A stretch of DNA of 64,000 bases. Origin: Actinomycetota bacterium. Lineage in GTDB: Bacteria; Actinomycetota; Acidimicrobiia; Acidimicrobiales; Ilumatobacteraceae. The position numbers and the translations under genes were made by a program. Position 1 is the stretch's first letter, and every line of letters begins with the position of its first letter. A model generated the notes under the pieces. That model worked only from the letters and a program-made list of their open reading frames with translations, was not told the origin of the DNA and ran no database searches. The stretch spans positions 1 to 64,000 of the forward strand of contig JAPKZY010000096.1 in NCBI GenBank assembly GCA_026393535.1, given 5' to 3'. Positions 43,645 to 52,347 of this stretch are shown piece by piece.

Positions 43645-44598
43645 TTACACCCACTGCAGTAAATCAACCTGCACTTTGGTGAGTGACTGCTGCACGTCGA
43701 GCCATTCTCCAATGCTCGGTATGGGTCGTCCACGTGCAACGAATAACATTGAGATATGCATATGTGGCGGTTCCAACATATTGAGTCGTTGACGCTGAAA
43801 ATGAAACGGACTACGACCATCATCGAGGGGTGATACTCCGTGGGCTGTACCGCACCCAACAATCACAATCTCGCCTGGCCCTTTGATAGGAACCTGCGTA
43901 TAGCCGGCAAAAGAGCCTGATTCCACTGGGTGATGATCAAGGATGTCGGCTGACAGTTGCATGGTGGATTTGTCGCCGTGCCACAGTGATGTACCAAGAC
44001 GCATGCGAAATTCACGCGACGGATAGTCGCGACGTAATGCAGCGTATGCCGCAGAATCAAGATGACTGATGTACACGGGCAACGCAGGGTCAATGTGGTC
44101 TAACCATTGCGTGATGTCTGAAAGATGAGTAGCCATGTCGCCAGCAATCGGAGGATGAATCGCATAACCACGAATGGTGAATTGCGCGCTGGCAATATCG
44201 GAGAGCAACGGTTGAAGGTTTGCATGCGTAACACCGAAACGTTTTGTAGATGATTGCAACTTCACAATGACATCACCACGCCATTGTGCGCGGGTAAGCG
44301 CCACAACATGATGAGGACTCCCGACCGTGAGCACGGTATTCATTGGCAAGTTCTTCGGCGGGGCAGTCATCGTTGGAGTCAAAACAATGGGAGTGAGGTG
44401 CGATGGCGTATCGCGTACTTCGAATACTGTTCCGACGGCGACTTCACGAGACAACTCACCTGCAATCTCCATGAGGTTCCAGCGTCGAAAGCCATAACCG
44501 TTGCCCTTCACCACCGGAACAAGCCCTGGGGTTGCATCAGCTACACCATGAACATGGGCAAGCCAGTCAGATCTGCGGACGGTGAGGCGAATAGTCAC
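43645..44598 (-). CDS. Alanine racemase-like PLP-dependent protein
   Basis: 317 residues with the N-terminal PLP-barrel of the alanine racemase family: the cofactor Lys is Lys31 in PVVKGNGYGFRR, followed by VKLQSSTKRFGV and a C-terminal beta-domain-like segment (about 200-317). It is shorter than canonical Alr (about 360-390), and the usual catalytic Tyr region of the C-terminal domain is not evident, so it may be a divergent racemase or another PLP enzyme. GTG 44598 follows TACGGT (44611-44606) at 7 nt, a leaderless arrangement, and is next to a complex inverted-repeat region. Confidence 0.7.
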   Translation of the reverse strand: MTIRLTVRRSDWLAHVHGVADATPGLVPVVKGNGYGFRRWNLMEIAGELSREVAVGTVFEVRDTPSHLTPIVLTPTMTAPPKNLPMNTVLTVGSPHHVVALTRAQWRGDVIVKLQSSTKRFGVTHANLQPLLSDIASAQFTIRGYAIHPPIAGDMATHLSDITQWLDHIDPALPVYISHLDSAAYAALRRDYPSREFRMRLGTSLWHGDKSTMQLSADILDHHPVESGSFAGYTQVPIKGPGEIVIVGCGTAHGVSPLDDGRSPFHFQRQRLNMLEPPHMHISMLFVARGRPIPSIGEWLDVQQSLTKVQVDLLQWV

Positions 44599-44667: not shown

Positions 44668-45159
44668 ATGGCAAAAGTATTTGGGTTTCCCAATCCAGTG
44701 AACGAAACGTCGGCCCGCATTGTGGCCACAGGCGCGGTTCTGATGAGCGTTTTATTCGTCGTCACCGGAAACCCTTTGGTGCTTGTGCCGCTGACATACG
44801 GGTTCATTGCTCGAGTCCTTACAGGCCCACTTCTCAGCCCGCTTGGTCGAATTGCCACCGAAGTCATCACGCCGCAAATGAAGCGCGATCACGTACTCGT
44901 CGCTGGACCGCCTAAACGTTTTGCCCAAGGAATCGGTGCAGCGTTTTCAATCGCCGGATCTGTATTGTGGATTCTTGATCTGCACACTGCGTCACGTGTT
45001 GTCATTGCAATGTTGGCTGGCGCGGCATCGCTTGAAGCATTTGTTGGCTTCTGCCTGGGATGTGCAATCTTTTCTCGTCTCATGCGATGGGGTGTCATTC
45101 CTCAATCAGTCTGTGAAGACTGCAATGACATCAGCGCGAGACTGAGCGCCGCACGGTAA
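44668..45159 (+). CDS. DUF4395 family membrane protein
   Basis: 163 residues with about four hydrophobic helices. The family landmarks are FPNPVNETSARIVA at the N-terminus and GPPKRFAQGIG in the middle, with a cysteine-containing end (GFCLGCAIFSRLM and VCEDC). DUF4395 proteins are small actinobacterial/firmicute membrane proteins of unknown function, often near thioredoxin-like genes. Its promoter appears leaderless and covered by repeat half-sites. The 3' end overlaps the end of mftF by 29 bp (45131-45159), convergent. Confidence 0.85.
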   Translation: MAKVFGFPNPVNETSARIVATGAVLMSVLFVVTGNPLVLVPLTYGFIARVLTGPLLSPLGRIATEVITPQMKRDHVLVAGPPKRFAQGIGAAFSIAGSVLWILDLHTASRVVIAMLAGAASLEAFVGFCLGCAIFSRLMRWGVIPQSVCEDCNDISARLSAAR

Positions 45160-46498
45160 TCACCGGCAACAAACACCGCAATGAACGTGTGCGTACCGCA
45201 CCTACCCACACACCAGTTCCGTATGCCACATCTTCAAGAATGCGCACGATGAAATAACGAACGGGGTGACTTGGCTTTTTGCGCAGAATACCGACAATCG
45301 GCGGAACAAGGGCACTGAACGTAATCATGACACCGGGACGAGGTGATACGAACGATGCAAGAAAAAACAACGGCAACCATGCCCGCATGATGGCACGTGC
45401 AAGTAGTCGGGTGGTGCTGGTCAGTCCTTTCCAGGCAAGTCGGCTGCGTGTTCCAATGGGAATCGAAGTTGAACGGAGGGAAACCACAAAATACGCGACC
45501 GTTGGCACCACGAGAATCAATGCAAAATAGATGTAACCCATCAAAACAGTTGTTGCTGTGGTCAAGAGCAATGCATGAGCACGTAACGGTGAGGCTGCGC
45601 GCGGGTGACGTTTATCTAGCAATGCAGCGCTGGTGCCGTAGTCATAACGCTGTTTGAGCATTTTGCGCATTGATGAGCGGGTTCTGTGGGGGCATTCAAT
45701 CGACGGTACGTAACGGCATGCAATTCCATTCTCGATGAAACGCCACACTAGATCGACGTCTTCCCCCATGCGGATTGAATCATCAAACCCACCAACTGTA
45801 CGGAGTGACTGCACATCGCACACCAGCACAGCTGCGGGAAGATACGACACGCGAGACATTGGACGAACAACAGCAGGCACTGAGCCGAGATCGAGGGGTG
45901 AATGGTGAGACTCAAATTCACCAATGAATGTTCCATCGTTTATGCACGTAATGCGAGGGGCGACGGCACCAACACGCAAGTCAGTGCAATATGCGGCCAG
46001 TGTGGCGATCTGCTGTGTCGTCACCATGACGTCAGTATCAACGCAAGCCACCACTGTCGTTGTGACGGCAGCGATGCCGGTATTGCGCGCAGCCGCAGGT
46101 CCTTTGTTTATGTCGTGCCTAATGACACGAGCTCCGGTGATGTCTATGGGGTGTGGCGACGTATCATCAACGATGATGATGGTGAGGCCAACGAGTGATG
46201 CCACAAGTTCCTGAAGATGGACATGTGATTCTGCGTCAGAGATTAATGCAGGAATCACAACGGTGATATCAGTGAGTGCTGAAGGCCTTTCCGGAACAGG
46301 GTGAACTGCACCAGTAGCCAACAAACGATCAGTTAATTGTGCATGGTTCTGCGGTAACTCGGAATTGGTCTCGATGGCATCTAATATTTTTGACCCTGCA
46401 TCTGTAACGCCAAAGTATGTAAGTGGAGAACCAGCGAGTACGCCATTTCCATTTTTAGAACGAAACCATTGATCGTCGGGGAGAAGCCGAATCGTCAT
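45131..46498 (-). CDS. mftF: Mycofactocin glycosyltransferase MftF
   Basis: 455-residue family 2 glycosyltransferase that in mycobacteria adds the oligoglucose chain to (pre)mycofactocin. The N-terminal region (FGVTDAGSKILD) is a peptide-chaperone-like extension typical of MftF. The GT-A domain follows: TIIIVDDTS (about 118-126), VACVDTDV (DxD-type), GPAAARNTGIA, GGFDDSIRMGEDVDLVWR. C-terminal hydrophobic segments (from about 320) suggest membrane association. The ATG at 46498 overlaps the mftE stop as ATGA, so it is translationally coupled; a longer in-frame start at 46516 is less likely. Confidence 0.88.
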   Translation of the reverse strand: MTIRLLPDDQWFRSKNGNGVLAGSPLTYFGVTDAGSKILDAIETNSELPQNHAQLTDRLLATGAVHPVPERPSALTDITVVIPALISDAESHVHLQELVASLVGLTIIIVDDTSPHPIDITGARVIRHDINKGPAAARNTGIAAVTTTVVACVDTDVMVTTQQIATLAAYCTDLRVGAVAPRITCINDGTFIGEFESHHSPLDLGSVPAVVRPMSRVSYLPAAVLVCDVQSLRTVGGFDDSIRMGEDVDLVWRFIENGIACRYVPSIECPHRTRSSMRKMLKQRYDYGTSAALLDKRHPRAASPLRAHALLLTTATTVLMGYIYFALILVVPTVAYFVVSLRSTSIPIGTRSRLAWKGLTSTTRLLARAIMRAWLPLFFLASFVSPRPGVMITFSALVPPIVGILRKKPSHPVRYFIVRILEDVAYGTGVWVGAVRTRSLRCLLPVITVRRSVSR

Positions 46499-47178
46499 TG
46501 CGCGCCACCGAGCCATTCATTAGAAAGTGCTGCAAGATGCGTTGCAAGGCTTGTCGAGTAGAGCCTCATTACTGCAATGCCATGTTCGCTGGTAGCAGTG
46601 GTTGGATCACCGAGAACACCATTGGCGGATACGCCAGCAACACCACTGGTGCGCATCTGCGTCACAAGGGCAGACGCATCTCCGATAGTTCCACGTTCAA
46701 TCCGATCAGTCTGAACTTTGCCTGGAGCAACATAAAGCATTACTGAAGTTTCCGTGTGTCCTGCGTGCATATCGGATCCGTCATAGGAGGGCAGAGACCA
46801 TATTGAATGTCTGATCTTTTCGTATGTGAGAGCTGAGCTAATGCGCGCAAGTGCGTCTGCATTCCCACCGTGTCCGTTCACTATGCAAACACCTTGTGAC
46901 CATGAGGCTGACCGACAGATTGCAACGACAGACTGCACGAGCGCCTCGGTTCCTGTGCTGAGCGTGCCAGGGAATCCGACGTGTTCATCGCTAGCCGAAA
47001 TTGCAATTGTTGGCGCAATAGCAAAAGCGTCCGCATCAACCTGCGTGTCACGCAGTGCATGTATAACAACCGAATCAATAATGATGGTGTCGGTATCAAA
47101 GGGCAAATGTGGTCCGTGCTGTTCCCACGAACCAAGGGGCAATAATAAAACCTTTGAGTTTGGACTTGTGGTCGACAT
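46495..47178 (-). CDS. mftE: Mycofactocin system creatininase-family peptidase MftE
   Basis: 227-residue creatininase-fold metallopeptidase that releases the C-terminal Val-Tyr-derived unit (AHDP precursor) from the modified MftA peptide. Metal ligands are Glu19, His21 and Asp30 in LGSWEQHGPHLPFDTD, with INGHGGNADAL and HAGHTETSVML further on. Length and motif order match MftE and not amino-acid creatininases. The gene starts 1 bp after the DedA-like gene's stop and overlaps mftF by 4 bp. Confidence 0.9.
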   Translation of the reverse strand: MSTTSPNSKVLLLPLGSWEQHGPHLPFDTDTIIIDSVVIHALRDTQVDADAFAIAPTIAISASDEHVGFPGTLSTGTEALVQSVVAICRSASWSQGVCIVNGHGGNADALARISSALTYEKIRHSIWSLPSYDGSDMHAGHTETSVMLYVAPGKVQTDRIERGTIGDASALVTQMRTSGVAGVSANGVLGDPTTATSEHGIAVMRLYSTSLATHLAALSNEWLGGAQ

Positions 47179-47179
47179 G

Positions 47180-47812
47180 TTATTTGTTTAGGGGTGTTGA
47201 GGATGACCCTAAACGATGACGAAAATGTCGAATCACTTCCAAAGATACGGTTGCCCCGATTGCAATAGAGAAGGCAACGAGAAATGCTTTTGAGTGGTTG
47301 TCTTGAAACGAGCGACCACCAATAAAACCAAGAAGAGTTCCGTACATTGCCCAGATTGGGGTAGCGATAGCGATCCATTTCATGAACCAACGGCGGTCTT
47401 GATTAGTAATTCCACAACTGAGAGTGAGAAGGGTGCGACCACCTGGAATAAAACGCGCAGTGATTAGCAGTTCGCCGCCGCGCAACTGAATTTGTTCGTG
47501 CGCCCAATGAAGTCGCCGTTGTCCTTTGGCGCTTCGTTCATATCTCTTTTGCAATGACGCTGAGAATCGATGTCCGATTTGATAGCTGATGTTGTCCCCT
47601 GCAAAGGCGCCAGCGGCAGCGGCGATAATGACTAACGACCAGTGAAGTTCATGTAGCCCAGCACTCACTCCACCAATAATGACTAGTGATTCACTGGGAA
47701 CGACAGGAAGGACAGAATCAAGCAGTGCTATGGAGAAAATTGCTAGATAGAACCACGGCGATCCTGAGTAGTGCTCAAGCCAATTAAAAAATGAATCAAG
47801 AAAAGAGAACAC
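47180..47812 (-). CDS. DedA family membrane protein (SNARE-associated / VTT domain)
   Basis: 210-residue integral membrane protein with about five hydrophobic segments. Family signatures are LPVVPSESLVIIGG (about 36-49) and ARFIPGGRTLLTL (about 116-128), the conserved re-entrant-loop region of DedA flippases. Members help translocate undecaprenyl phosphate or phospholipids across the membrane. It sits between plsY and mftE in the mycofactocin operon, 9 bp after plsY and 1 bp before mftE, which is not its usual location. Confidence 0.88.
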   Translation of the reverse strand: MFSFLDSFFNWLEHYSGSPWFYLAIFSIALLDSVLPVVPSESLVIIGGVSAGLHELHWSLVIIAAAAGAFAGDNISYQIGHRFSASLQKRYERSAKGQRRLHWAHEQIQLRGGELLITARFIPGGRTLLTLSCGITNQDRRWFMKWIAIATPIWAMYGTLLGFIGGRSFQDNHSKAFLVAFSIAIGATVSLEVIRHFRHRLGSSSTPLNK

Positions 47813-47821
47813 AAATGGAGG

Positions 47822-48412
47822 TTAGACGGTTGAGCCTGTCACGGGGGGCTCGGTACCAGTTAACAATCGTTTGATATTTGATGCATGTCGAACTTCCACT
47901 AGGGCACCAATACCAACAAGCGAGAAAATTTCCCACCATTGTGTGCCGCTCATGATGAAAGCAACAACCAAGACCGGCACGATTGCGATAGATGCAATCG
48001 ATGCTTTTTTCGTCACCTTCGTCACGAGGAGCCATGTCAGAGCAGCGCCAATGAGAAGAACGGGATGAAGCGGTAACAAACTTCCCGCTCCAGTTGCAAC
48101 GCCCTTGCCACCTCTGAATTTCCGAGTGATGGGAAATACATGACCAAGCACAGTTGCAGCTGCGCATGCGTACGCAATCGGACGATTCGATAGAAGAGCG
48201 AAAACGGGAAGTGCACCTTTGAGGGCATCACCGACGAATACGAGGACTCCGTACTTAGCGCCCAGTGCTCGGGCAACATTGCTTGCACCGGGATTACCTG
48301 AACCAAATGTTGTGATGTCGATGCCTTTTGATTTAGCAATAAGAATTGCTATGGGCAAGGTGCCACAGAAATAAGCGATAATGATCGCAATTACTGCAAC
48401 AAAAGAATTCAC
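47822..48412 (-). CDS. plsY: Glycerol-3-phosphate acyltransferase PlsY
   Basis: 196-residue membrane enzyme that acylates glycerol-3-phosphate with acyl-phosphate to give lysophosphatidate. About five hydrophobic segments; conserved loops are FGSGNPGASNVARALG (motif 1, about 36-51) and TRKFRGGKGVATGAG (motif 2, about 95-109), both with the key Gly/Asn/Lys residues. The GTG start overlaps the mftC stop as GTGA (48409-48412), so it is translated together with mftC. It is therefore embedded in the mycofactocin operon, where mftD would be expected. Confidence 0.93.
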   Translation of the reverse strand: MNSFVAVIAIIIAYFCGTLPIAILIAKSKGIDITTFGSGNPGASNVARALGAKYGVLVFVGDALKGALPVFALLSNRPIAYACAAATVLGHVFPITRKFRGGKGVATGAGSLLPLHPVLLIGAALTWLLVTKVTKKASIASIAIVPVLVVAFIMSGTQWWEIFSLVGIGALVEVRHASNIKRLLTGTEPPVTGSTV

Positions 48413-49536
48413 GTAGAAACTTTACTCTTTATCAGGGTTCGTGCTGGCTTTGAATGGTCCATTGAAGGGCGAGGGACAAGCGAGACAGGAACGGATGGCA
48501 ACAGCACTTCGCCATGGCCTGTTACGCATTCGGGGTCTGGGCCATCTAGGGGAAGACCAGTAAAGAACTTGGCGGCCATGCAACCACCCTGGCAGGCGTC
48601 GAATGCGCCACAGGACGCACATGCGCCTGCACTTTGTGGTTCACGTAATTCTGTGAAGAGATCTGATTCGCGCCATACGTGGGTAAAACCACCGTCTTCA
48701 AGAACATTGCCTGCTTTGAAGGTGTCATGAATAACAAATGGGCACGCGTAGACATCGCCGATTGGGTCGATGAGGCATACCACTCGTCCAGCGCCACATA
48801 AGTTCAAACCTGGCAATGACTCACCAAATGCGTTGAGGTGGAAAAAAGAATCGCCGGTAAGAACGTTTTCTCCGTGTGCAAGCAACCAGTCATAGATCTG
48901 ACGTTGTTGAGCATTTGTGGGGTGAAGTTCATCCCATGTATCTGCACCACGTCCGGCTGGACGCAAACGTGTAATACGCAATTGGGCACCGTATGAATCA
49001 GCAAGAGCCTTGAATTCATCAAGTTGATCAACGTTGTGGCGCGTTACGACCACTGAGATTTTAAATTGACCAAAACCGGCAGCCTTCAAATTGTCCATCG
49101 CACGAATGGCGGTGTCGAATGAACCTTCACCGCGTACTGCGTCGTTTGTAATGGCATCCGTGCCATCAAGACTGATTTGAATATCGAGATAATCCATTGC
49201 GGTGAGACGCTCAGCATTTTTCTTGTCAATGAACGCGCCATTCGTAGAGAACTTGACACCAATGTTGTTAGCAATTGAATGTTCAACAATTTCGAAAAAG
49301 TCGCGGCGAATCATTGGCTCGCCACCACCGATGTTGATGTAAAACACTTGCAACGCAGCAAGTTCATCAAGAACGGCTTTCGCTTGTTCAGTAGACAATT
49401 CACGGTCATCGCGTTGTCCGCTACTAGACAAACAATGCACGCACGCCAGGTTGCACGCGTAGGTGAGTTCCCATGTGAGACAGATAGGAGCATCAAGCCC
49501 TTGCTTCATTTGTTGGCCGAGGCTATGAGAGGACAC
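48409..49536 (-). CDS. mftC: Mycofactocin radical SAM maturase MftC
   Basis: 375-residue radical SAM/SPASM enzyme that oxidatively decarboxylates the C-terminal Tyr of MftA and then forms the Val-Tyr C-C bond. The radical SAM cluster is Cys28-x3-Cys32-x2-Cys35, followed by the GGE motif (GGGEPM). A C-terminal SPASM domain has cysteines in DVYACPF, CASCGAFDACQGGC and DPEC for auxiliary clusters. It overlaps mftB by 14 bp; GTG 49536 is the likely start. Full length and no missing cluster ligand. Confidence 0.95.
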   Translation of the reverse strand: MSSHSLGQQMKQGLDAPICLTWELTYACNLACVHCLSSSGQRDDRELSTEQAKAVLDELAALQVFYINIGGGEPMIRRDFFEIVEHSIANNIGVKFSTNGAFIDKKNAERLTAMDYLDIQISLDGTDAITNDAVRGEGSFDTAIRAMDNLKAAGFGQFKISVVVTRHNVDQLDEFKALADSYGAQLRITRLRPAGRGADTWDELHPTNAQQRQIYDWLLAHGENVLTGDSFFHLNAFGESLPGLNLCGAGRVVCLIDPIGDVYACPFVIHDTFKAGNVLEDGGFTHVWRESDLFTELREPQSAGACASCGAFDACQGGCMAAKFFTGLPLDGPDPECVTGHGEVLLPSVPVSLVPRPSMDHSKPARTLIKSKVST

Positions 49537-49792
49537 GAATTATCTCCGATGTGGTGAGGGAAGAAAGAGCTTCAATGAATGAGGGCCACCGTGATTCGGC
49601 GACGCCTTCTGCAACGAACGTGTCGCGCAAGGTTGGGTGTTCACCCATCGTTTTGACAACACGCACAATGTCTGGGTGACGAAGAAAAACTAAACGACGG
49701 TTGCCATAGTGATAGGCGAGCGCACCAAAGGGTTCAGGCCGGATCGCGACTTGAGGGTGCAACTCGCACGCGGACTCAAGCGTGACTGTCAT
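49523..49792 (-). CDS. mftB: Mycofactocin RRE peptide chaperone MftB
   Basis: 89-residue RiPP-recognition-element protein that binds the MftA peptide and presents it to MftC. The sequence follows the MftB pattern: HPQVAIRPEPFGALAYHYGNRRL near the N-terminus, with winged-helix fold residues, and RWPSFIEALSSLTTSEIIRVL at the end. It starts 15 bp after the mftA stop and overlaps mftC by 14 bp. Confidence 0.93.
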   Translation of the reverse strand: MTVTLESACELHPQVAIRPEPFGALAYHYGNRRLVFLRHPDIVRVVKTMGEHPTLRDTFVAEGVAESRWPSFIEALSSLTTSEIIRVLS

Positions 49793-49807
49793 GATGATGC
49801 GAGCTGG

Positions 49808-49930
49808 TTAGTACACGCCGCACATGCCGTCAATGGAAATCTCCTCGACGAGAAGTTCCTCGACGATGGGGCTTTCCACGCTGGCTGAGGCCTGCTCGGG
49901 TACTGGTTGTGGGGCAATGTCCTTATCCAT
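49808..49930 (-). CDS. mftA: Mycofactocin precursor peptide MftA
   Basis: 40-residue precursor starting at ATG 49930 and ending in the family-invariant IDGMCGVY, in which the terminal Val-Tyr becomes the redox cofactor. The leader is acidic (EELLVEEIS) as in other MftA peptides. A longer frame reaches 50023, but it would cover the promoter region and is not supported. TACTGT (49943-49938) lies 7 nt before the ATG, so the transcript may be leaderless. First gene of the operon mftA-B-C-plsY-dedA-mftE-mftF. Confidence 0.96.
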   Translation of the reverse strand: MDKDIAPQPVPEQASASVESPIVEELLVEEISIDGMCGVY

Positions 49931-50037: not shown

Positions 50038-51150
50038 ATGAAGACAACCGCTGCAATTCTGTGGGAAGTAAACGCTCCGTGGAGCGTTGAAGAAATTGAA
50101 CTCGATGCGCCGAAGGCTGGCGAAGTCTTGGTCAAGATTGCCGCTTCAGGCATGTGCCACTCAGACGAACACCTCACTACAGGAGACCTGCCATTCGCGT
50201 TGCCCATCATTGGTGGCCACGAAGGCGCCGGAGTTGTTGAAGCTGTTGGCGAAGGTGTGAGTTGGCTTGAAGTCGGCGACCATGTGGTGTTCGGGTTTAT
50301 CCCGTCATGTGGTCGTTGCCCAAGTTGCTCAACCGGTCATCAGAACTTGTGCGACCTTGGTGCGCTAATGGGACTTGGTATGCAAGTAACTGACGGCACA
50401 TCACGTCATCACGTTGGCGACAAAGACCTCACACTCATGTGCATGCTTGGTACGTTTGCCAAGCACACAGTTGTGAACGAAGCATCATGTATCAAAATTG
50501 AAAAAGATGTTCCACTAGAGAAGGCATGCCTTCTTGGTTGCGGTGTCGTCACCGGTTGGGGATCTGCTGTGTATGCAGCAGACGTTGCTCCTGGCGACAC
50601 AGTCGTTGTTGTTGGCGTTGGCGGTATCGGTGCCAACGCAATTCAAGGTGCTCGCCTTGCTGGTGCAAAGCGCATCGTTGCAATCGACCCTGTTGAGTTC
50701 AAGCGCGAAAAAGCTATGGAATTCGGTGCAACACATACAGCATCGTCAATGGCCGAAGCATTGCCATTGCTGCAAGATCTCACATGGGGAACAATGGCGA
50801 ACAAAGTCATCATGACCATGGGCGTCGGCAACGGCCAAATGATTGGCGAAGCCATGGCACTTGCTGCAAAGCGCGGCCGTGTTGTTGTTACCAACATTCA
50901 TCCAGCACTTGAAATGGGTGGCGCAAACATGAGCCTTCTTGACCTCACACTGATGGAAAAGCAACTTGTTGGTTCACTGTTCGGTTCAGGTAACCCACGT
51001 GCAGACATTCCGAAACTTCTTGGTCTGTACCGCGAAGGCCAACTTGATCTTGATGGTCTTGTCACAAAGACATACAAGCTTGAAGACATCAACGAGGGCT
51101 ACCAAGACATGCGTGATGGCAAAAACATCCGCGGAGTTTTGATCTACTAA
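50038..51150 (+). CDS. NDMA-type (mycofactocin-associated) zinc alcohol dehydrogenase, copy 1
   Basis: 370-residue zinc-dependent medium-chain dehydrogenase of the Rxyl_3153/NDMA-dependent group, whose members keep NAD(H) tightly bound and need an external acceptor, thought to be mycofactocin. Catalytic zinc ligands are Cys40 and His61-Glu62, plus a third Cys in LLGCGVV. The structural-zinc cysteines are 91, 94, 97 and 105 (CGRCPSC...LC), and the NAD loop is VGVGGIGANAIQGA. A strong AAGGGGG Shine-Dalgarno precedes ATG 50038. Divergent from mftA. Alcohol substrate unknown. Confidence 0.92.
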   Translation: MKTTAAILWEVNAPWSVEEIELDAPKAGEVLVKIAASGMCHSDEHLTTGDLPFALPIIGGHEGAGVVEAVGEGVSWLEVGDHVVFGFIPSCGRCPSCSTGHQNLCDLGALMGLGMQVTDGTSRHHVGDKDLTLMCMLGTFAKHTVVNEASCIKIEKDVPLEKACLLGCGVVTGWGSAVYAADVAPGDTVVVVGVGGIGANAIQGARLAGAKRIVAIDPVEFKREKAMEFGATHTASSMAEALPLLQDLTWGTMANKVIMTMGVGNGQMIGEAMALAAKRGRVVVTNIHPALEMGGANMSLLDLTLMEKQLVGSLFGSGNPRADIPKLLGLYREGQLDLDGLVTKTYKLEDINEGYQDMRDGKNIRGVLIY

Positions 51151-51195
51151 ATCACAACAGCCAGAAATGGTTAACAATTCCAGGGGGAAACAACA

Positions 51196-52347
51196 ATGAA
51201 GTCACGCGCAGCAGTTTTGTACGGGATAGATCAACCATGGATGGTTGAAGAAATCGAAGTCGATGATCCAAAAGCCAATGAAGTATTGGTGAACTGGAAA
51301 GTGGCCGGCATGTGCCACTCAGATGAACACTTCGTTACTGGCGACATGGTTCCCCCCAAGGAACTGTTGGCCATGATGGGTGTCGATGACTTCTTTCCAT
51401 TTATTGGTGGACACGAAGGTGCCGGAATTGTTGTGAAGCTTGGGCCAGGTGTTACTACCTTGGAAGTGGGCGACCATGTGTCGGCCAGTTTCGTTCCATC
51501 ATGTGGTCGTTGTCGGTACTGCTCAACAGGTCGTCAAAACCTGTGCAACTTAGGTGCAGGCACATTGACTGGCGGAATGATTACAGATGGCACACATCGC
51601 CATCACGTGAAAGATGGTCGCTCCGTCAAACTGATGGCAAAACTCGGAACATTCTCTGAGTTCGCCACTGTTGCTGAAGCATCCCTCATCAAAGTTGAAA
51701 AAGATTTGCCACTTGATTGCGTAGCGCTCGTGTCATGCGGCGTTGCAACTGGCTGGGGCTCTGCTACAACTCGCGCAGATACACAGCCTGGCGACACTGT
51801 CGTAGTTGTTGGTATCGGCGGCATTGGTATCAACGCTGTACAAGGTGCTCGGATGGCTGGTGCAAAGCGAATCATTGCTATTGACCCTGTTGAGTTCAAG
51901 CGTGAAAAGGCAATGGAGTTCGGTGCAACACATACGTATGCATCAATGACTGAAGCAATTCCGCATCTCATGGAATTGTCATGGGGTGAAATGGCTGATC
52001 GGGTCATCATGACTCCTGGCGTTCTTCATGGCGAAATGATGGGTGAAGCAATGACAATGGTCGGCAAGGGTGGCACATGTGTTGTTACTGCAATTTCACC
52101 TATGGTCGAAACCAGTGCAGACATTAACTTGTTCCAACTTGCGATGTGGAACAAGGAAGTGAAGGGCACCATCTTTGGCAGCCTGAATCCGCGAGCTGAT
52201 ATTCCTAAATTGCTTGACATGTATCGCGTTGGCGACCTCAAACTTGATGAGCTCATCACAAAGCGTTACACGCTTGATGACATCAACGAGGGGTATCGCG
52301 CTATGCGTGAGGGTGAAAACATTCGTGGTGTCATAGTCAATGACTAA
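51196..52347 (+). CDS. NDMA-type (mycofactocin-associated) zinc alcohol dehydrogenase, copy 2
   Basis: 383-residue paralogue of the preceding gene with the same zinc and NAD motifs (GMCHSDEH, GGHEGAG, CGRCRYCSTGRQNLC, VGIGGIGINAVQGA). It carries an extra insertion after the first zinc ligand (about 50-68, VPPKELLAMMGVDDFF). AGGGGG precedes ATG 51196. The two copies have clearly diverged and may handle different alcohols or form a heteromer. The stop overlaps the AAA ATPase gene by 8 bp. Confidence 0.92.
   Translation: MKSRAAVLYGIDQPWMVEEIEVDDPKANEVLVNWKVAGMCHSDEHFVTGDMVPPKELLAMMGVDDFFPFIGGHEGAGIVVKLGPGVTTLEVGDHVSASFVPSCGRCRYCSTGRQNLCNLGAGTLTGGMITDGTHRHHVKDGRSVKLMAKLGTFSEFATVAEASLIKVEKDLPLDCVALVSCGVATGWGSATTRADTQPGDTVVVVGIGGIGINAVQGARMAGAKRIIAIDPVEFKREKAMEFGATHTYASMTEAIPHLMELSWGEMADRVIMTPGVLHGEMMGEAMTMVGKGGTCVVTAISPMVETSADINLFQLAMWNKEVKGTIFGSLNPRADIPKLLDMYRVGDLKLDELITKRYTLDDINEGYRAMREGENIRGVIVND

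Follow-up and report, generated by a model that had tools for sequence, protein, structure and literature searches.

A mycofactocin operon with plsY and dedA at the place of mftD, and a candidate substitute for MftD in related Acidimicrobiia

The redox centre of mycofactocin is attributed to the action of the enzyme MftD. In the canonical system of Mycobacterium, mftABCDEF (TIGR03969/3967/3962/3966/3964/3965), the MftD gene stands between mftC and mftE, and canonical loci of the class Acidimicrobiia, such as L234, have the order mftB-mftC-mftD-mftE. The stretch of DNA analysed here, 64,000 nucleotides from the genome of a freshwater actinobacterium of the Ilumatobacteraceae and referred to as the window, carries a mycofactocin operon in which mftD is not found between mftC and mftE. 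That spot is occupied by plsY and a DedA-type gene. Where, then, is mftD, and how did two genes for membrane proteins come to stand in its place?

All seven genes of the operon are real. The order mftA-mftB-mftC-plsY-dedA-mftE-mftF (45131-49930, minus strand), with reading frames that overlap or nearly touch, had been read from the sequence in the initial annotation, and it was confirmed by profile scores and by measurement of the junctions. The cut-offs used are those of NCBIfam equivalogs for mftA, mftB, mftC, mftE, mftF and plsY, and the Pfam gathering score for the DedA-type gene. mftA (49808-49930) encodes a 40-amino-acid mycofactocin precursor ending in ISIDGMCGVY (TIGR03969, 51 bits against a cut-off of 25). 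It is followed by mftB, encoding the peptide chaperone (49523-49792; TIGR03967, 96.7 bits against 33), and mftC, encoding the radical SAM/SPASM maturase (48409-49536; TIGR03962, 629.5 bits against 265). Next come plsY, encoding a glycerol-3-phosphate acyltransferase (47822-48412; TIGR00023, 154.7 bits against 137.2), and the gene for a DedA-type membrane protein with a VTT domain (47180-47812; PF09335, 63.2 bits against 33.9), which is under all DedA and UptA equivalog cut-offs of NCBIfam. The peptidase gene mftE (46495-47178; TIGR03964, 218.2 bits against 172) and the glycosyltransferase gene mftF (45131-46516; TIGR03965, 340.1 bits against 280) complete the series. The markers of a mycofactocin cluster, namely mftA with its GMCGVY C-terminus, mftB, mftC, mftE and mftF, are all found, and the window contains a functional-looking mycofactocin operon. 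A gap of 15 bp separates mftA from mftB, mftB and mftC overlap by 14 bp, and mftC and plsY by 4 bp; plsY and dedA are 9 bp apart, dedA and mftE 1 bp, and mftE and mftF overlap by 22 bp. Because every junction is an overlap or a gap of no more than 15 bp, mftA to mftF likely form a single transcript.

The operon has neighbours on both sides. A convergent gene on the plus strand for a DUF4395 protein (44668-45159; PF14340), a conserved neighbour by synteny, shares 29 bp with the 3' end of mftF, and a minus-strand gene encodes a PLP protein whose N-domain is of the alanine-racemase type (43645-44598; PF01168, 39 bits against 24.1). Divergent from mftA on the plus strand lies the gene for an NDMA-dependent (nicotinoprotein) alcohol dehydrogenase (50038-51150; TIGR03989, 560 bits against 440), a predicted client of mycofactocin. 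The same side holds a tandem pair of alcohol dehydrogenases (50038-52347) with about 60% mutual identity; such a pair is also found upstream of mft operons in many relatives.

The gene that is missing from the operon is present in the genome. None of ten window proteins scanned (43.6-51.2 kb) matches MftD, which bears out the earlier statement that the window has no mftD-like gene, and a genome-wide search for a homologue located a full-length mftD on contig C32 (2161-3336; 695 bits against the TIGR03966 cut-off of 471). For the window organism, the suggestion that mftD lies elsewhere was correct. This is the sole MftD match above cut-off in the whole assembly (G000; 1.96 Mb, 113 contigs, 94% complete). 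The window genome shares with the canonical system all six biosynthetic proteins, each above its curated cut-off, as well as the core peptide and a nicotinoprotein alcohol dehydrogenase alongside. It differs from that system in its unlinked mftD, in plsY and dedA between mftC and mftE, and in having no match to MftG.

On C32, mftD lies 73 bp behind katG, encoding a catalase-peroxidase, together with a divergent OxyR-like regulator (L005, 2161-6567). This arrangement seemed attractive at first because an oxidase would release peroxide. A conserved katG-mftD unit for peroxide handling was rejected: other family genomes with both genes have them far apart or on different contigs, and the congener G058 has mftD near the same transporter genes, with katG absent there.

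In relatives, a larger set of genes is found between mftC and mftE. The OYE-type operon of the family reads mftABC-OYE1-plsY-OYE2-dedA-etfA-fixC-fixX-etfB-mftE-mftF. For example, L192 (G028) has the order mftB-mftC-OYE1-plsY-OYE2-dedA-etfA-fixC-fixX-etfB-mftF, and L173 (G022) has the same order plus mftE. Some members are without plsY or dedA at those points or have plsY ahead of OYE1, as do L177 and L191 from other genera. In the examples scanned, OYE1, OYE2 and EtfA score above the cut-offs of TIGR03996, TIGR03997 (both "mycofactocin system FadH/OYE family oxidoreductase") and mft_etfA (NF038209), respectively. For mft_etfB (TIGR04503) the highest-scoring protein is EtfB, slightly under the cut-off (180 against 200), and the protein behind EtfA is of the FixC type. 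Whereas these NCBIfam mycofactocin families stand among mftC, plsY, dedA and mftE in relatives, they are absent from the window operon, and OYE1 (TIGR03996) has no match in G000 at E<=1e-120. Other Acidimicrobiia families carry OYE1-OYE2-EtfA-FixC between mftC and mftE without plsY (e.g. L252, L255). With its place between mftC and mftE, which in canonical loci is that of mftD, the module therefore occupies the mftD position. In one locus (L182, G018:C47), otherwise intact, OYE1 is split across overlapping frames, which looks like assembly frameshifts or a decaying gene.

MftD and OYE1 were not found together in any genome sampled, either among the 61 of the family or among the 247 drawn from the class, most of which are incomplete MAGs. 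MftC is above cut-off in 51 of the 61 family genomes. MftD is above cut-off in 19, and one more, cut by a contig edge (G031), brings the number to 20; OYE1 is present in 29, 27 of them with MftC above its cut-off. By HMM, the 51 genomes with MftC comprise 20 with MftD, 27 with OYE1, none with both and four with neither. Two of these four (G014, G018) carry OYE1 fragments, and in the other two (G026, G059) the loci end close to mftC. The class sample contains 32 genomes with MftD, 18 with OYE1 and none with both. The exclusion is genome-wide for OYE1 and MftD, and OYE2, EtfA and FixC were compared within mft loci only. The possibility that OYE-type genomes hold a divergent MftD that scores too low was considered and rejected, as only LldD-like matches under about 300 bits occur there, and these occur in MftD-type genomes also; several OYE-type genomes, such as G022, have no MftD-like match at E<=1e-65.

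Within the family, the exclusion has a Fisher p of 1.4e-10 if relatedness is ignored. On the MftC tree the label switches at least 13 times, or 6 times if only well-supported branches count, and in none of six independent pairs on supported branches do MftD and OYE1 go the same way (median sign-test p 0.031). Two other families of the class, f3 and f4, each include MftD-type and OYE-type genomes, in separate genera. Once corrected for phylogeny, the statistical case is modest, but the sampled genomes hold no counter-example to the exclusion.

Based on these patterns we propose, with moderate confidence, that the OYE/ETF/FixC module takes over the MftD step, in which the cyclised core AHDP is oxidatively deaminated to premycofactocin. 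Oxygen would not receive the electrons, which would travel via ETF and a FixC-type ETF:quinone oxidoreductase. The MftA core SIDGMCGVY is identical in every family MftA read, in OYE and MftD types alike, which rules out an altered core that removes the need for MftD. Many OYE-type loci, too, have retained a nicotinoprotein alcohol dehydrogenase gene next to mftABC. Because of this common core and these dehydrogenases, organisms of the OYE type presumably continue to make a mycofactocin that is redox-active. M. smegmatis cannot dispense with the deamination by MftD, and mature mycofactocin is abolished when mftD is lost (PMC7491314). OYE1 and OYE2 are related to dienoyl-CoA reductase, trimethylamine dehydrogenase and histamine dehydrogenase; they share the FMN, 4Fe-4S and nucleotide-binding fold family with trimethylamine dehydrogenase (1djn) and histamine dehydrogenase (3k30, 6de6), and the cysteines of the 4Fe-4S motif CxxCxxxC-x11-C are conserved in 33 OYE1 and 18 OYE2 sequences. 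Trimethylamine dehydrogenase hands its electrons to ETF, and FixC-type proteins link ETF to quinone and feed the quinone pool. Given the unchanged core, the indispensable MftD step, the kinship with trimethylamine dehydrogenase and these roles of ETF and FixC, AHDP oxidation is most likely performed by the module. Two observations speak against it. Among solved structures, the best relatives of OYE1 and OYE2 are enoate and dienoyl-CoA reductases (1ps9, 6qkg) rather than amine dehydrogenases, and the sequences are nearer to the reductases. In addition, the cysteine that anchors FMN covalently in trimethylamine and histamine dehydrogenases is absent; the aligned column holds Val in OYE1 and Leu in OYE2.

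A different task for the same genes is possible, though we consider it rather unlikely: the module might re-oxidise mycofactocinol, which is the job of MftG in mycobacteria, or shuttle electrons between mycofactocin and the quinone pool, in which case the deaminase would be another, unlinked enzyme and the exclusion with MftD indirect. MftG is present in about 75% of mftC genomes, and what substitutes for it in the remaining 25% or so is an open question (PMC11778925). Only one of the 61 family genomes has MftG over the cut-off, which means that almost all members of the family need some other way to re-oxidise mycofactocin, and the quinone pool is where FixC-type proteins deliver electrons. 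The single MftG (G014:C31:24354-25847) is in an OYE-type genome. However, the MftD-type genomes of the family are without MftG as well and yet have no OYE1. The module does not track the absence of MftG; it tracks the absence of MftD and sits at the operon place of mftD. As MftG is missing in both types, the module was rejected as its substitute, and a role of this kind leaves the exclusion with MftD unexplained.

It is also conceivable, but improbable, that the mycofactocin of OYE-type lineages, though derived from the same peptide, differs in its chemistry, and that these lineages have no need of MftD. Many high-quality genomes, e.g. G022 (97% complete, 7 contigs), retain mftA, mftB, mftC, mftE and mftF without MftD, as such a product would allow. 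The precursor core is nevertheless identical, the same NDMA-dependent dehydrogenase family stands beside both operon types, and related genera switch between the types. The initial annotation had offered a different end product as one explanation of the locus. For the window this fails, mftD being in the genome; it does fit the mftD-less relatives, which have the OYE/ETF/FixC module at the mftD position.

plsY and dedA appear in both the window operon and the OYE-type operon, and their presence has a simpler origin than a part in the pathway. The window genome has a single PlsY match, and most other family genomes have a single full-length one; a second, specialised PlsY was considered and rejected, as G000 gave no further match. 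plsY adjoins dedA in six relatives without MftC, which belong to two genera (G003, G030 and G046; G009, G032 and G048). In five of the six a PLP-type gene comes after plsY-dedA, and the contig of the sixth stops at dedA. This PLP-type gene, at 43645-44598 in the window, stands behind mftF in relatives and directly behind plsY-dedA at loci that have no mft genes. Because the operon plsY is the only PlsY match in its genome, and because its adjacency to dedA is kept without the mycofactocin maturase, the pair are resident housekeeping neighbours, and the plsY-dedA-PLP block is independent of mycofactocin. By hand count, plsY lies directly after mftC, starting within about 0.5 kb downstream of it, in 35 of the 51 mftC-bearing family genomes, and in four further genomes the distance is about 2 kb, with one OYE gene in between. 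Of the two findings that together would have spoken against the initial annotation, an mftD elsewhere in the genome and a plsY-dedA insertion that is not conserved, only the first was thus made. The same annotation had also suggested that the pair might be coupled to a use of mycofactocin at the membrane, anchored there or linked to lipid. The touching frames and the common position behind mftC would favour such a coupling, but it is unsupported and very improbable in view of the sole PlsY match, the six MftC-less relatives, and the roughly one quarter of mftC genomes in which plsY is kilobases off or on a different contig.

That the C32 mftD is a binning contaminant, and that the window organism truly is without mftD, is barely credible: the assembly is fragmented and the gene lies on a 13.8-kb contig, but C32 has a GC content of 0.507 against 0.511 for the window and a tetranucleotide correlation with it of 0.945 (0.95-0.96 for chunks inside the window), mftD is present in all three sampled congeners, C32 is syntenic with the mftD locus of G058, and the window MftD clusters in the tree with those of G058, G005 and G047.

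The trees bear on the direction of the exchange. The OYE1 sequences of the family form one clade (support 100), as is expected of vertical inheritance. Its MftD sequences are scattered in several groups among those of other families (6 changes, 3 forced), and the cluster that includes the window MftD falls inside a clade dominated by f4 (support 95). The pattern is most simply read as repeated arrival of mftD by horizontal transfer, accompanied by the loss of OYE/ETF/FixC. The support for this reading falls short of proof, since the MftC, MftD and OYE1 trees come from quick searches and contain several weak forks. In the window lineage, mftD would have been acquired horizontally at an unrelated site, and OYE1, OYE2 and the ETF/FixC genes would then have been lost from an OYE-type operon. 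Such a loss would leave plsY and dedA alone between mftC and mftE, which is the order that had puzzled the initial annotation. The explanation as a whole, in which mftD is unlinked, plsY-dedA are housekeeping genes, the module was lost after mftD was gained and the module substitutes for MftD, is in our judgement fairly probable.

Part of this picture is already known. The founding paper of 2011 found MftD in most, not all, mycofactocin species, and it mentions neither OYE nor HMMs of the TIGR03996/TIGR03997 type (PMC3023750). The OYE and ETF families were named after mycofactocin by NCBI curators. A literature search, with thin coverage of subscription journals, found no report of the MftD/OYE exclusion, the shared operon position or the repeated exchange, no paper on the module acting in place of MftD, and nothing pairing mycofactocin with Acidimicrobiia or Ilumatobacter or with electron transfer flavoprotein; mycofactocin combined with Old Yellow Enzyme gave one off-topic match only. 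We rate the window operon, taken by itself, as ordinary and the pattern across the family as a variation on a known system.

For the window organism, the gene that is missing from the operon is simply elsewhere, and the odd content of the operon would be a relic of the enzyme set of an ancestor. For the class, the chances seem to us evenly balanced that Acidimicrobiia have a second, MftD-independent and possibly oxygen-independent route to mycofactocin. Here two OYE-family iron-sulfur flavoenzymes, a dedicated ETF and FixC/FixX would oxidise the AHDP amine and pass the electrons to quinone, and the six-gene module would have been exchanged repeatedly for mftD, the window being one such exchange. 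A role would thereby be suggested for OYE and ETF families that have so far been only "mycofactocin-associated". Many pathways that are complete in other respects have no mftD and always have one specific redox module in its stead, which points to an enzyme for the MftD step that has so far escaped recognition and makes this step open to testing.
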